Assembly (NCBI GenBank): GCA_017305555.1 | Contig: JAFKKM010000059.1 | Coordinates: 1 to 33,182 of the forward strand | Reading direction: 5' to 3' | Origin: Hyphomicrobiales bacterium | Lineage (GTDB): Bacteria; Pseudomonadota; Alphaproteobacteria; Rhizobiales; Xanthobacteraceae | Length of the DNA: 33,182 bases | Shown: in pieces, positions 20,945 to 27,160 of the stretch | Position numbering within the stretch: position 1 is the stretch's first letter | Layout of the letters: each line of letters starts with the position of its first letter | Notes under the pieces: model-generated | The model's input: only the letters and a program-made list of their open reading frames with translations | Told to the model about the DNA's origin: nothing | Databases searched by the model: none | Program-made: the position numbers and the translations under genes

Positions 20945-21520
20945 TTATCCGGGCACCATGATGCGACTGCGCAGCATCAGCCGCGCGCGGCCCAGTTTCC
21001 GCAGCAACGTTCGCTCGGCGTCGCGTCGTCCGGCCGGGTAGCCGCCAAGCGCCTCGAAATGCCGTCGTGCGATGACGAGGCCTTGATCAGGCGAGGGACC
21101 GGATAACAGCCGCAGGATGTGAGCCGCCGCTGCCCTCACACCCTGATCGGCATAGGGCGAGCGGGCGTAGCGCAGGATCGCGGCGCGGGGTGCCGGCGCG
21201 CTGGCCATTCGGTCGATGAACTGCGCGGTCTCGTCGATCCAGCTCAGGTCCGGCACCGTGCCCGGGTGCAGGAACATCAGCCACGGCGCGCGCGCCTCCT
21301 TCACCCCGGCGGCGAGCGCGTCCGCGCGCGATCCCTTGCAGACCAGATAATCGCAACCGGCAACGTCCGCCACGCGCGCGACGGTGTCGGTGTCGCCGCG
21401 ATCCACCAGCACGACGTCCTGGATCAGGCCGGCGGTCACGCCCGGCACCAGCGCGGCGAGGGTCGCCACTACCGGCGGCTCCTTACCCTCGGTCGGGATG
21501 ATGACGCTGAGCATCGGCAT
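20945..21520 (-). CDS. GT2-like glycosyltransferase-fold protein, active site degenerate
   Basis: A 191-residue protein with the opening of a family 2 glycosyltransferase: MLSVIIPTEGKEPPVVATLA, then VVLVDRGDTDTV where active enzymes have a VDDGSTD-like motif, and LMFLHPGTVPDLSWI where they have an LDAD (DxD) motif. The DxD position reads HPG, so the metal-nucleotide site seems lost. It has no membrane segment and is shorter than most GT2 enzymes. It may be a non-catalytic or altered-specificity member. GGGAGTG about 10 bases upstream supports the ATG at 21520; an ATG six bases later is also possible. Confidence 0.78.
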   Translation of the reverse strand: MPMLSVIIPTEGKEPPVVATLAALVPGVTAGLIQDVVLVDRGDTDTVARVADVAGCDYLVCKGSRADALAAGVKEARAPWLMFLHPGTVPDLSWIDETAQFIDRMASAPAPRAAILRYARSPYADQGVRAAAAHILRLLSGPSPDQGLVIARRHFEALGGYPAGRRDAERTLLRKLGRARLMLRSRIMVPG

Positions 21521-21612
21521 CTGTTGCGGTCACTCCCGGAGATCCCAATGGTGACGCTTCTAGCATTTTTCCGCGTTGCGGAGGCGGGGCGCCGCCGGGC
21601 GAAGATCAAAAG

Positions 21613-21621
21613 TTATCCACA
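21613..21621 (+). promoter_or_regulatory. Perfect DnaA-box sequence
   Basis: TTATCCACA (21613-21621), the strict DnaA box consensus, lies 18 bases before the SOS box of the radical SAM gene. A single 9-base match can occur by chance, so a role is unproven. Confidence 0.4.
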
Positions 21622-21638
21622 GGCTGTCGTTCGCAAAT

Positions 21639-21653
21639 GTTCTTGATATGTTC
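21639..21653 (+). promoter_or_regulatory. LexA (SOS) box, alphaproteobacterial type
   Basis: GTTC-N7-GTTC (21639-21653) is a perfect match to the direct-repeat LexA site used by alphaproteobacteria. It overlaps the likely -35 element TTGATA (21643-21648), which is followed after 16 bases by TAGCAT (21665-21670). A LexA dimer bound here would block the promoter of the radical SAM gene. Confidence 0.8.
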
Positions 21654-21677
21654 TTATGGCGTGCTAGCATCCAATCC

Positions 21678-22847
21678 ATGAGCAAAGCCTCCAGCGCCCT
21701 CAAGCACCCGCCGGTCTCCCCAGCCTCGGCCCCCACCGAACCGGCGGGTGCATCTCCCTCGTTTTCGGAGATCGCGATTGCGATCGACCGCGAGCGGCGA
21801 CGCGGTCGCGGGGCGCAGTCGAATGCCAGCGGACGTTTCGAGGCGGAGGCGCGCGTCACCTTCGACGACGGCTGGCAGAGCCTCGACGAGTTACCGCCGT
21901 TCAAGACGACGGTGGCGCTCGACACCTCGCGCAAGGTCATCACCCGCAACGAGTCTCCCGATATCGGCTTCGACCGTTCGATCAATCCCTATCGCGGCTG
22001 CGAGCATGGCTGCGTTTATTGTTTCGCGCGGCCGACCCACGCTTATCTCGGGATGTCGCCGGGGCTGGATTTTGAATCGAAACTGTTCGCCAAGCCGGAC
22101 GCGCCGGCATTGCTGGAGAAGGAACTGGCGGCGTCAGGCTATGAGCCGAAGATGATCGCCATCGGCACCAACACCGATCCCTATCAGCCGATCGAGCGCG
22201 AACACAAAATCATGCGCGGCATTCTAGAGGTGCTGGAGCGCGCCGGGCACCCGGTCGGTATCGTCACCAAGTCGGCGCTGGTGATGCGCGATATCGATAT
22301 CCTGTCGCGGATGGCGCAACGCAATCTGGTCAAGGTGGCGCTTTCGGTCACATCGCTCGATCCGAAACTGGCGCGCACCATGGAGCCGCGCGCATCGACG
22401 CCGCCGAAACGGCTCGAGGCATTGCGGCAGTTGTCAGCAGCGGGGATTCCGACCACGGTGATGGTGGCGCCGGTGATCCCGGCGCTCAATGACTCGGAGA
22501 TCGAGCGCATTCTCGATTCTGCAGCCCATGCAGGCGTCAGGGAAGCGAGCTACGTGTTGTTGCGCCTGCCGCTGGAAGTCCGTGACCTGTTCCGCGAATG
22601 GCTGATGGCGCATTATCCTGATCGCTACCGTCACGTCTTCACGCTGATCCGTGAGATGCGCGGCGGCCGCGATTACGATTCACAGTGGGGCACGCGGATG
22701 AAGGGCACCGGACCGATAGCCTGGATGATTGGCCGTCGGTTCGAGATGGCTTGCGAGAGGCTGGGCCTCAACAAGCGGCGATCAAAACTGACCATGGATC
22801 ATTTCTCACGGCCGCCGCGCAACGGCCAGCAACTCAGTCTGTTTTAG
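21678..22847 (+). CDS. PA0069-family radical SAM protein (SplB-like), SOS-controlled
   Basis: A 389-residue radical SAM protein. The cluster cysteines are C108, C112 and C115 in RGCEHGCVYC, within the conserved SINPYRGCEHGCVYCFARP region. The Gly-rich SAM-binding and barrel motifs MIAIGTNTDPYQPIE, GIVTKSAL and TVMVAPVIPALND follow, and the C-terminus ends QLSLF. The family is related to spore photoproduct lyase (SplB), a DNA repair enzyme, but its reaction is not established. The SOS box directly upstream argues for a DNA-damage role. No ribosome site precedes the ATG, and the predicted transcription start falls at or just before it, so the message may be leaderless. The VOC gene follows after 10 bases. 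Confidence 0.92.
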   Translation: MSKASSALKHPPVSPASAPTEPAGASPSFSEIAIAIDRERRRGRGAQSNASGRFEAEARVTFDDGWQSLDELPPFKTTVALDTSRKVITRNESPDIGFDRSINPYRGCEHGCVYCFARPTHAYLGMSPGLDFESKLFAKPDAPALLEKELAASGYEPKMIAIGTNTDPYQPIEREHKIMRGILEVLERAGHPVGIVTKSALVMRDIDILSRMAQRNLVKVALSVTSLDPKLARTMEPRASTPPKRLEALRQLSAAGIPTTVMVAPVIPALNDSEIERILDSAAHAGVREASYVLLRLPLEVRDLFREWLMAHYPDRYRHVFTLIREMRGGRDYDSQWGTRMKGTGPIAWMIGRRFEMACERLGLNKRRSKLTMDHFSRPPRNGQQLSLF

Positions 22848-22857
22848 GGAATGTAAT

Positions 22858-23313
22858 ATGAGTCCCGAACGGCCTGTGCCGGTAGCGAAACTGACGGTCG
22901 TGACGCTGGGCGTTAGCGATATGCGCCGGAGTATCACGTTTTACGAGGCGCTGGGCTTCGCGCGGCGGATGCGTGCCACCGGCGAAGAGGTGGCTTTCTT
23001 CGAGACCGGCGGCGCCGTGCTCGCGCTCTATCCATGGTCTCGGCTGGCCGAGGATGCGGCCTTGGCGGATCAGCCACGCCCGCAAGGGTTTCGCGGCATG
23101 ACGCTGGCCTGGAATTGCGCGTCGGAGCAGGACGTCGACGCTGTCCTGGCATTCGCTGTCGCGCAAGGCGCGACGCTGCTCAAGTCGGCGCATCGCACGG
23201 ACTATGGCGGCTACTCCGGATACTTTACCGACCTCGACGGTCATCCATGGGAAGTGGTCGTTGCGCCAGGGATCGAGGTCGGCGCGGATCGGCGGGTTCA
23301 TTTGCCGGATTAA
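22858..23313 (+). CDS. VOC-family (glyoxalase/bleomycin-resistance fold) protein
   Basis: A 151-residue single VOC domain. It shows the paired beta-alpha-beta-beta-beta modules: KLTVVTLGVSDMRRSITFYE at the start and YSGYFTDLDGHPWEVVVAPG near the end, the latter carrying the usual Asp-Pro/His-x-Trp-Glu signature with a metal-ligand glutamate. It could be a small-molecule lyase or an antibiotic-binding protein; the substrate is unknown. It starts 10 bases after the radical SAM stop on the same strand and should be co-transcribed, placing it under the same SOS box. That co-regulation is inferred from spacing only. Confidence 0.88.
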   Translation: MSPERPVPVAKLTVVTLGVSDMRRSITFYEALGFARRMRATGEEVAFFETGGAVLALYPWSRLAEDAALADQPRPQGFRGMTLAWNCASEQDVDAVLAFAVAQGATLLKSAHRTDYGGYSGYFTDLDGHPWEVVVAPGIEVGADRRVHLPD

Positions 23314-23354
23314 TTCGGTGACGCACTGCACCGTTTGGAGCGCGGTCGCATGGC

Positions 23355-23684
23355 TCAATGCGCGATCTTGGTGGTGAGGTTCAGCCCGACCGCGCCGACC
23401 ACGATCAGCGCGATGAACAGCATCTGTATGACGCTCAAGGATTGGCGCAGAAACATCGCGCCGATCAGAGAGATCAGAACCACACCGGCCCCGGACCAGA
23501 TGGCATAGGTGACGCCGACCGGAATGCGGGTCAGTACCTGCGACAATGCCCAGAAGCAACCGGCGAAAATGGCTAGAGAGAGCAGGCCGTAAATCGGCTT
23601 GTCGAAGCCTTCGGATTTGGTGAGCAGCGTGGTCGCGGTCACTTCGGCGACAATGCTGACGGCGAGAAGTCCCCAGGCGTTCAT
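23355..23684 (-). CDS. SMR-family multidrug efflux protein (EmrE type)
   Basis: A 109-residue, four-helix small multidrug resistance protein. The essential membrane glutamate is E14 in VSIVAEVTATTLL. PVGVTYAIWSGAGVVLISL (helix 3) matches EmrE/Qac-type exporters of cationic compounds better than the guanidinium exporters of the Gdx/SugE type. It would work as a proton-coupled antiporter dimer in the inner membrane. The start at 23684 gives the standard length; the longer open frame upstream includes noncoding sequence shared with the rnhB promoter region. Two hairpins lie 46-94 bases upstream of its start. Confidence 0.9.
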   Translation of the reverse strand: MNAWGLLAVSIVAEVTATTLLTKSEGFDKPIYGLLSLAIFAGCFWALSQVLTRIPVGVTYAIWSGAGVVLISLIGAMFLRQSLSVIQMLFIALIVVGAVGLNLTTKIAH

Positions 23685-23729
23685 GATCGATTCCTTGTTG
23701 CCGGCTTCGGCGGATGCCGTTCGGTAACC

Positions 23730-23778
23730 GTCGCACCGTCGTGCGACAATCCCGTGCATGGTCGCGGTTCCACGGGAT
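23730..23778 (-). promoter_or_regulatory. Tandem hairpins upstream of the SMR gene
   Basis: Two perfect stems lie one base apart: ATCCCGTG/CACGGGAT (8 bp, 23749-23778, 14-base loop) and GTCGCAC/GTGCGAC (7 bp, 23730-23747, 4-base loop). They lie in the divergent SMR-rnhB spacer. The loops do not match the ACGR loops of the guanidine-II riboswitch. They may be a leader structure or protein-binding sites; no function can be assigned. Confidence 0.4.
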
Positions 23779-23839
23779 AGCGGGTACATCGCCCGGTTCC
23801 CGGTTGCACGGGGCGCGCCGCTTGCCGCACCATCGCGCC

Positions 23840-24568
23840 ATGATTCGAGCAACTCCTGCCATCAAGCCGAAGAAGAAGCCGGACGCCGCCGCGCCGACGT
23901 TCTCGCGCGAACGCGCGTTGATTAAGCGCGGGATCTGGCCGGTGGCGGGATGCGACGAGGCCGGCCGTGGGCCGCTGGCCGGACCGGTGGTGGCCGCCGC
24001 CGTGGTGCTCGACCCGAAGCGCATTCCCAAGGGGCTCGACGATTCCAAGCGGCTGACGGCCGCGCGGCGCGAGGAGCTGTTCGAGGAGATTTGCGCCACC
24101 GCCTCCTGTGCCGTGGCGTTCGCCTCGCCGGCGCGGATCGAGCGCGACAACATCCTGCGTGCCTCGCTGTGGGCCTTGGCGCGCGCGGTCCAGGCGTTGC
24201 CCGAGATGCCGCGGCACGTCTTTGTCGACGGTCGCGACCGCATCGATGCGCCCTGCGACTGCGATGCGGTGATCGGCGGGGACGAGTTGGTGCTGTCGAT
24301 CGCGGCGGCCTCGATTATCGCCAAGGTGTCGCGCGATCGGTTGATGTGCCGGCTGGCGCAGGATTGTCCGGGCTATGGCTTCGAGGTTCACAAGGGGTAT
24401 GGCGTGCCGGCGCATATGGAGGCGTTGCGCAGGCTCGGGCCGAGCGTTCATCATCGACGGCTTTTCGCGCCGGTGATGGCTGCGGCCGCGCGATTGCAGG
24501 TCACCGTCGAAGCGGATCGCATTGCCGTCGAACAGACGGTGATTTCGGTCGACGCCGCCGCCGGCTGA
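23840..24568 (+). CDS. rnhB: Ribonuclease HII
   Basis: RNase HII removes ribonucleotides and RNA primers from RNA-DNA hybrids. The product has 242 residues with a basic, disordered N-terminus (KPKKKP) and then the catalytic core. D39 and E40 are in [18 protein letters not shown], including the GRG motif that recognises the RNA-DNA junction. D130 is in HVFVDGRD and D166 in IIAKVSRDR, completing the acidic site. ATG 23840 was chosen because upstream in-frame sequence is the noncoding spacer shared with the SMR gene; no strong ribosome site is visible. The protein is longer than E. coli RnhB owing to both tails. Confidence 0.95.
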
Positions 24569-26305: not shown

Positions 26306-27160
26306 TCAGGTCGCGGGCGCGCTCGTAGCGGCGTCGAGCGCTTTCGAAATTGCGCGCAGGTCCTGCCAGGCGAGCCGCTTGTGGATCGGTTGCCGCAGCA
26401 GATAAGCCGGATGGAACATCGCCATCGCACGAATGGTGCGCGTGCCGGTGTCGTAGTTGTGCCAGCGCCCGCGCGTGCGCATGATGCCGTCCTTCAATTC
26501 AAGCACCGCGTGCGACGACGGCTTGCCAAGACATACCAGCACGTCGGGATCGACCAGTTCGATTTGCCGTTTGATGAATGGCAGACAGATTTGCGTTTCC
26601 TGTGGCGAGGGATCGCGGTTGCCCGGCGGTCGCCACGGAATGACATTGGTGATGTAGGCGGTGGTGCGGTCGAGCCCGATGGCGCCGATCATGCGGTCGA
26701 GCAGCTTGCCGGAACGGCCGATGAACGGGATACCTTCAAGGTCCTCGTCGCGGCCCGGTGCTTCGCCCACGAACATGATGCGCGCCTGCGGGTTACCGTC
26801 GGCAAATACCAGCCGTGTCGCGGTCTGCTTCAGCGCGCAGCCGTCGAAGGTTTCCAGCAGCGCCCGCAATGCTTCGAGCGTCGGTGCGGTGCGTGCTGCG
26901 TCGCGCGCCGAAGCAATGGCGACGTCCGGCGCGGGCGCTGTTGCCGCCGGTGCGCGGGGAATCGCCGCCGGCGCGGGGGGAGGGCGACGAATATTGGCGG
27001 TCGGCGCGGCGACTGGCGGCGGGGTTGCGATCTCCGGATCGAGCAGCCGGTTCGGCGGTTCCTCCAGCAAGGCGCAGTCCACCCCGGCTTCGAGGTAAAA
27101 CGCCAGCAGTTCGCGCGCGGTCGGCGGCGGCTCGGCAGTCGGTGGGGACGGGGTGTTCAT
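26306..27160 (-). CDS. Family-4-like uracil-DNA glycosylase, iron-sulfur site incomplete
   Basis: It excises uracil from DNA. The product is 284 residues with a Pro/Ala-rich N-terminal extension (about 1-90) and then the glycosylase domain: MFVGEAPGRDEDLEGIPFIG (about 129-148, the active-site GEAPG motif), NVIPWRPPGNR, and the DNA-intercalating MFHPAYLLRQP (about 248-258). Family 4 enzymes hold a [4Fe-4S] cluster with four cysteines in C-x2-C...C...C spacing. Here C108, C192 and C210 fit three of them, but the first (expected at 105) is Phe. C29 lies in the extension. Alphaproteobacterial relatives may share this loss. The ATG is the complement of 27158-27160. Confidence 0.88.
   Translation of the reverse strand: MNTPSPPTAEPPPTARELLAFYLEAGVDCALLEEPPNRLLDPEIATPPPVAAPTANIRRPPPAPAAIPRAPAATAPAPDVAIASARDAARTAPTLEALRALLETFDGCALKQTATRLVFADGNPQARIMFVGEAPGRDEDLEGIPFIGRSGKLLDRMIGAIGLDRTTAYITNVIPWRPPGNRDPSPQETQICLPFIKRQIELVDPDVLVCLGKPSSHAVLELKDGIMRTRGRWHNYDTGTRTIRAMAMFHPAYLLRQPIHKRLAWQDLRAISKALDAATSAPAT

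Follow-up and report, generated by a model that had tools for sequence, protein, structure and literature searches.

A PA0069-family radical SAM gene under predicted LexA control, with a probably leaderless start and a clamp-type C-terminal peptide

Few enzymes of the radical SAM superfamily are known to work on DNA, and none, to our knowledge, has been shown at the replisome. The closest described systems come from two directions, repair enzymes of the radical SAM superfamily and proteins of the SOS response. LexA control of splB, whose product was called a predicted photolyase, was predicted in 2012 in alpha- and betaproteobacteria, in passages of a paper that covers genomes with multiple chromosomes (PMC3323433), and a passage elsewhere describes splB (COG1533) as SOS regulated in several species (PMC8565304). 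In Streptomyces a gene described as radical SAM, vnz_31145, is placed in the LexA regulon in the relevant part of PMC9380542; the figure of 19.97 given there for mitomycin C is taken to be an RNA-seq fold change. The PA0069 family is defined by NF033668, a 'hypoth_equivalog' model with no named function, and LexA control, a leaderless start and a clamp motif are not in its description.

The window considered here, a whole stretch of 33,182 nucleotides, contains a gene whose 389-residue product matches NF033668 at 585.2 bits (cut-off 360) over model positions 1-348 of 348, full length and with nothing in the match that differs from the family, which bears out its identification as a PA0069-type radical SAM protein in an earlier, preliminary description of this DNA. 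Against the model for the actinobacterial sister family, Rv2578c (NF038135), the protein reaches 228 bits, below the cut-off of 430; the two families are separate. Both hallmarks of the superfamily, CxxxCxxC and a match to PF04055 (70.4 bits), are present. The features of the locus are as follows.

20945..21520, minus strand: GT2-like glycosyltransferase gene, a divergent and conserved neighbour (profile match below cut-off)
21639..21653, plus strand: LexA box GTTCTTGATATGTTC, perfect GTTC-N7-GTTC, conserved in 108/109 loci
21643..21648, plus strand: -35 element TTGATA, inside the LexA box
21662..21670, plus strand: extended -10 element, TG at 21662-21663 followed by TAGCAT at 21665-21670
21678..22847, plus strand: PA0069-family radical SAM protein, 389 aa (NF033668, 585 bits)
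21999..22022, plus strand: CEHGCVYC, the CxxxCxxC iron-sulfur/SAM motif, residues 108-115, invariant in 27 aligned sequences
22830..22844, plus strand: C-terminal QLSLF, residues 385-389, fitting the canonical beta-clamp-binding motif
22858..23313, plus strand: VOC/glyoxalase-fold protein (PF00903; PDB 3bqx closest), 151 aa, probably the second gene on the transcript
23355..23690, minus strand: SMR (EmrE/Qac-like) transporter gene, between the VOC gene and rnhB (profile match)
23714..24568, plus strand: ribonuclease HII ORF, domain beginning at about residue 60-78

The window gene and the LexA-controlled splB of PMC3323433 are the same class of gene with LexA boxes, and two species of that paper, S. 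meliloti and Paracoccus denitrificans, have PA0069-family genes with the alphaproteobacterial box (GTTC-N7-GTTC, hereafter the alpha box), from which we infer that the published splB is the PA0069 family. The regulation is therefore known in kind. Since LexA control of splB had already been predicted, the additions made here are the clamp-like tail and the leaderless geometry, neither of which, unlike the situation for the window gene, is mentioned in sections 7 and 8 of PMC3323433. Both the tail motif and the published LexA prediction had been missed in the preliminary description.

The perfect LexA box overlapping the -35 element was correctly recognised at the outset, TTGATA (21643-21648) lying within the box at 21639-21653. 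The only promoter-like match in 21500-23420 is TTGATA-16-TAGCAT, in which a TG stands ahead of TAGCAT; it agrees with consensus at 9/12 positions, the mean number of promoter-like matches in shuffled sequence being 0.4; the TTG at the -35 place within the box is kept in most, not all, relatives. In the window GTTCTTGATATGTTC is the sole site with two or fewer mismatches (0.02 expected). The bare GTTC-N7-GTTC pattern was rejected as proof of LexA control, as its frequency is near chance both in the window (2 observed, 1.03 expected) and in the 5.17-Mb genome (150, compared with 115 for the reversed control), and the second match in the window, a GC-rich one at 26712-26726 on the minus strand inside the uracil-DNA glycosylase (UDG) gene, is probably due to chance. 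It is conservation in relatives, and not the frequency of the bare pattern, that is decisive for the significance of the box. A refined pattern, GTTCNNNNTNTGTTC, with T at box positions 9 and 11, was picked after inspecting the bare-pattern sites of the genome and gave 15 sites against 1 in the control. The 14 that lie outside the window were inspected and include positions upstream of recA and lexA, and at several no target gene was recognised; the names recA, imuA-like and UDG-like were given from translations, and lexA also by PF01726. One of these refined boxes (L149, C153:14185) has an imuA-like ORF on one side and a divergent UDG-like ORF on the other, and at C33:22404-22436 two of them (L014/L015), in opposite orientation and with starts 18 bases apart, have in their vicinity an ORF of 91 aa that looks secreted and, on the other strand, one of 42 aa.

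Conservation was followed in two sets of loci, the best 80 of 586 relatives in named genomes and 30 loci from the bacterium's own family (198 genomes searched, 191 with a match, 186 over cut-off), making 110 loci in which L114 is the window itself. L074, with only 43 bases upstream, was left out, and in the remaining 109, all with at least 400 bases upstream, a perfect GTTC-N7-GTTC was found within 420 bases of the domain in 108; in the sole exception, L059, the first GTTC reads ATTC. The scan of homologous loci that had been proposed as a check thus found the box conserved. Six pairs of upstreams are identical between the sets, which leaves 102 distinct ones. Wider samples were drawn from the order (121 genomes, 106 with a match, 101 over cut-off) and the phylum (150, 62 and 57, respectively, so that the family is frequent in the phylum), and from a subset of the matches 130 loci were taken and 129 parsed, some of which may duplicate genomes of the first set. 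The alpha box was present at 2/2 loci of the family, and elsewhere in the order and class at 102 of the 107 sampled loci (87/91 in the order and 15/16 in other alphaproteobacterial orders); four of the five misses (L188, L189, L190 and L256) show a box-like site that departs from the pattern at one position, and in L279 there is no such site. None of 20 loci outside the alphaproteobacteria has the alpha box, and 12 of them, including L212 with only 199 bases upstream, have a perfect E. coli-type box, CTGT-N8-ACAG. With L214 added the figure becomes 13/21, where mononucleotide shuffles predict 0.14; the remaining eight loci have no such box even when one mismatch is allowed. Two of four actinobacterial Rv2578c-type sister genes have CGAAC-N4-GTTC and two have no box, and three more distant radical SAM genes have neither a box nor a clamp motif, one of them ending EQLGF. 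The loci are biased to high scorers, so that near relatives are over-represented in these counts. The conservation at 108/109 loci, together with the switch to CTGT-N8-ACAG at 13/21 non-alphaproteobacterial loci, supports LexA control of the radical SAM gene, as had been proposed from the window alone, and it is probable that this soil bacterium turns on a likely DNA-repair enzyme upon DNA damage.

The ATG of the radical SAM gene is at 21678 and transcription is predicted to start at or next to it. An extended -10 element of the form TGnTA has been reported, in passages of PMC4842269, for leaderless mRNAs in Bradyrhizobium. Promoter geometry was compared among the closest relatives, from which 65 distinct upstreams were taken (loci L033-L073, L075, L077 and L113-L142). 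The 30 loci L113-L142 come from the same family and the others were picked by likeness; L041 was omitted for its runs of N and L059 for want of a perfect box. The distance from box start to ATG is nearly fixed, being 38 in 47 upstreams, 39 in 16, 34 in one and 40 in one. TGnTA is present in 47/65; in 46 of these TTGnnn precedes at a 16-base spacing. The T of the element stands 12 bases ahead of the ATG in 38 upstreams and 13 in seven, a position that would put +1 on or adjoining the A of the ATG. A Shine-Dalgarno (SD) core (GGAG, GAGG or AGGA between -18 and -4) was found before the radical SAM ATG in none of the 65, compared with 20/23 at the VOC starts of the same loci where the alignment begins from residue 1. 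The relatives therefore agree with the earlier statement that no ribosome site precedes this ATG, and the near-fixed spacing, the frequency of TGnTA and the lack of an SD core argue, as was also suggested earlier, that the radical SAM mRNA is probably leaderless. Upstream in-frame starts (a TTG at 21576 and an ATG within the box) were rejected, since the difference between distances of 38 and 39 among relatives shifts the frame. Changes in the first 14 codons, in ungapped comparisons of close relatives, number 432, 389 and 371 at codon positions 3, 1 and 2, respectively, and with so little codon-position signal they give no help in showing that these codons are translated.

Amongst all 102 distinct upstreams (from the best 80 of 586 and the 30), 85 have an in-frame ATG 34-44 after box start. 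AGGA precedes the ATG in 17 of the 85, none of which is among the 65 close upstreams, and there it is part of TAGGAAT, which may be the -10. The remaining 17 of the 102 have no ATG at 34-44, and in 10 of them the next ATG downstream is preceded by an SD-like core. In L076-L110, mostly Mesorhizobium and its kin, the box and a TAGGAAT-like -10 are kept. In some members of this group, which includes Phyllobacteriaceae-like loci, position +40 reads ATC rather than ATG and another ATG comes later, in some cases with an SD core, and it seems from this that the start has moved between leaderless and leadered forms. The bacterium's own genome has two other refined boxes with an ATG at 38-41. In one (L153, C174:13204) the box GTTCTTGATCTGTTC is followed 41 bases on by an ATG that opens a 92-aa ORF, possibly a second gene with a like promoter layout; in the other (L150) the box-linked ATG opens a 420-aa ORF on the strand opposite lexA, which is taken as spurious. 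With its near-fixed geometry the window promoter offers a compact example, found in nature, of an SOS gene that is probably leaderless.

The clamp-binding motif is Q-aliphatic-x-[L/M]-[F/L], with QLxLF as its strongest form, in the passages of PMC11139829 that define it, and the last five residues of the window protein, QLSLF, fall within this definition. Amongst the 110 loci (best 80 of 586 plus 30), QLxLF occurs within the last 30 residues at 88, and of the other 22, 21 end QLxLL and one QMSLF; Q[LM]x[LM][FL] is found in the last 15 residues at 109. For tail statistics 227 distinct proteins out of 239 were used, and again the last 15 residues were taken. QL[SD]LF was found in 103 of the 227 (0.12 expected from shuffled tails), Q[LM]xL[FL] in 199 (1.65 expected) and the loose form Qxx[LM][FLWI] in 220 (13.7 expected). 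Outside the class several tails read QGELF or QQQLF. Q[LM]xL[FL] is missing from 28 tails and the loose form from seven (L107, L191, L193, L198, L250, L273 and L283), amongst which L107 has QLxLF further inside the protein and L193 has a tail, QMALDL, that fits a six-residue form of the clamp motif. In the best 80 of 586 loci none of the 329 other ORFs of at least 250 aa has Q[LM]xL[FL] in its tail and one has the loose form. Sixty-five QLSLF tails are encoded by 30 different DNA sequences, which indicates that it is the peptide rather than the DNA that is conserved. Two of the four Rv2578c-type proteins read, those with a Gram-positive-type LexA box, end QLRLL or QLTLL, and the two without a box, from Arthrobacter and Tsukamurella, end QEPLF and QESLF. 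At the non-alphaproteobacterial loci L199-L230 the second tail residue is aliphatic (L, M or I) in 10/13 with a box and 1/8 without (Fisher p 0.0075, on counts made by eye from loci that are not independent, with kinship uncorrected), as if SOS control and clamp affinity had evolved together.

Pol II and Pol IV are under LexA control. A C-terminal clamp-binding peptide is given for these SOS polymerases in the part of PMC11139829 that deals with them. The window protein would resemble them in joining such a peptide to LexA control, and differs from them in being a radical SAM enzyme rather than a polymerase. That the tail matches the docking tag of repair polymerases suggests that the enzyme works at the replication fork. 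No literature link between the PA0069 family and the sliding clamp was found at the level of titles and abstract openings in partial result lists. It could be argued that the gene is indeed an SOS-controlled one for radical SAM repair, and that Q-L-x-L-F is nevertheless part of the fold or binds a partner other than the clamp, given that the L 18 places and the F 13 places before the last residue are conserved (0.95 and 1.00), so that the tail could pack on the barrel. This we regard as unlikely, because the peptide belongs to the class with the highest clamp affinity in the passages of PMC11139829 concerned, it stands at the C-terminus after a variable stretch, residues 386-389 of the structure model have pLDDT under 50, and QLRLL and QLTLL recur after different linkers in two of the four actinobacterial sister proteins. 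Docking on the clamp remains the preferred role for the tail.

The chemistry is approached through the fold. The structure model of the radical SAM protein has a pLDDT of 63, with residues 1-111 and 116-137 under 50, and the best PDB match of this low-confidence model in Foldseek is spore photoproduct lyase (SPL) 4rh0, a weak one (E 1.3e-5, TM 0.40, 15% identity). Spore photoproduct lyase requires a further catalytic cysteine, C140, which is named in the titles of the Foldseek SPL matches. Beyond Cys 108, 112 and 115, which are conserved by construction in the 227 sequences picked by CxxxCxxC and are also invariant in the 27 aligned sequences, no cysteine column of the 227 exceeds 44%, and the lack of a conserved fourth cysteine makes the exact spore photoproduct lyase scheme unlikely. 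A plain SplB under SOS control, which would reverse the thymine dimer 5-thyminyl-5,6-dihydrothymine in vegetative cells as in the 2012 paper, would account for SPL being the first and fourth Foldseek matches (4rh0 and 4fhf) and for the name splB given to the LexA-controlled alpha/beta gene in passages of PMC3323433. It is nevertheless improbable in view of the cysteines, the 15% identity and the profile search of PDB sequences, which gave chance-level matches alone and no SPL. The window protein shares with SplB the radical SAM motif, has SPL as its best, though weak, fold match, and differs in its lack of a conserved fourth cysteine, its low identity, its LexA box and its clamp-like tail. No second copy of the protein was found in its own genome at E 0.001. 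The superfamily is diverse and Foldseek also gives maturases, NifB and lipoyl synthase, so a damage-response role on RNA, protein or a metabolite might be considered; it is very improbable, as the top fold match is SPL and as boxes of three lineage-specific LexA types together with a clamp-like tail point to DNA.

The reading we favour, and hold with fair confidence on the strength of comparative sequence and a structure model, is that the gene is repressed by LexA and induced by damage, and that its product is a radical SAM enzyme of DNA repair held on the replication clamp. In the undamaged cell LexA on 21639-21653 would cover the -35 element and block RNA polymerase, and upon damage RecA-stimulated LexA cleavage, a known pathway, would free the promoter. 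By comparison with relatives, the transcript would begin on the ATG or no more than a base or two from it, so that the radical SAM protein would be made from a leaderless mRNA and the VOC protein by read-through. Through its last five residues, QLSLF, the radical SAM protein would bind the beta sliding clamp and so be kept at replication forks or at gaps; there a 5'-deoxyadenosyl radical formed by its [4Fe-4S]/SAM centre would reverse or modify a DNA lesion. The broader proposition, to which we give somewhat better than an even chance, is that there are widespread SOS-induced radical SAM DNA-repair enzymes, loaded on the clamp by a C-terminal peptide and carrying out radical lesion chemistry at the fork, with LexA control kept in Proteobacteria and at least part of Actinobacteria despite three LexA motif forms, and with a leaderless start and a repressor site overlapping the -35 in the present bacterial group. 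A clamp-binding tail and LexA boxes in several lineages would place the PA0069 family at the replication fork during damage, and its function, unnamed in the NCBIfam model, would become testable by simple assays.

The VOC gene starts at 22858, 10 bases after the radical SAM stop as originally noted. The two genes were described as a unit, which holds in the window and not as a general layout, a VOC gene being downstream at 45/110 loci (best 80 of 586 plus 30) and, in the best 80 of 586 taken alone, at 28. The VOC model (pLDDT 82) has as its nearest structures the uncharacterised VOC protein 3bqx, the closest by sequence, and the mitomycin-/bleomycin-binding MRD protein 1kmz (TM 0.65), and its fold neighbours also include TnmS1 and TioX. 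Metal-dependent VOC proteins of the Fos/glyoxalase type use two His and one Glu as ligands. With one invariant His in 21 sequences a canonical two-His metal site is not expected here, and a Fos-type resistance enzyme was rejected, the best Fos model giving 30.9 bits against a cut-off of 171. There is little likelihood that the locus is chiefly a drug-resistance operon, in which a natural product that damages DNA is sequestered by the VOC protein, with the radical SAM protein cleaning up, for although the fold neighbours 1kmz, TnmS1 and TioX and the single invariant His fit such a role, no VOC gene was found at 65/110 loci (best 80 of 586 plus 30), the closest structure by sequence is uncharacterised and VOC folds are generally alike.

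As first described, genes for RNase HII and uracil-DNA glycosylase lie within 6 kb, the latter being of family 4. UDG was rejected as part of the unit, since in the window no LexA box stands at the start of its gene. In 62 of the best 80 of 586 loci the GT2-like gene lies upstream on the opposite strand, and it is probably a separate unit. A tblastn search for the SMR gene gave no match, at E values of 1e-6 or less, among the best 80 of 586 loci, some of which end too early. The RNase HII domain begins at about residue 60-78 of its ORF, so that translation probably starts further in than the ORF does. Among the best 80 of 586 loci, some being cut short, 72 have RNase HII downstream on the same strand, and it may be co-induced in the SOS transcript of relatives, though not obviously in the window. 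Over 22848-24568 of the window, the order from radical SAM and VOC genes to rnhB is broken by the opposite-strand SMR gene.
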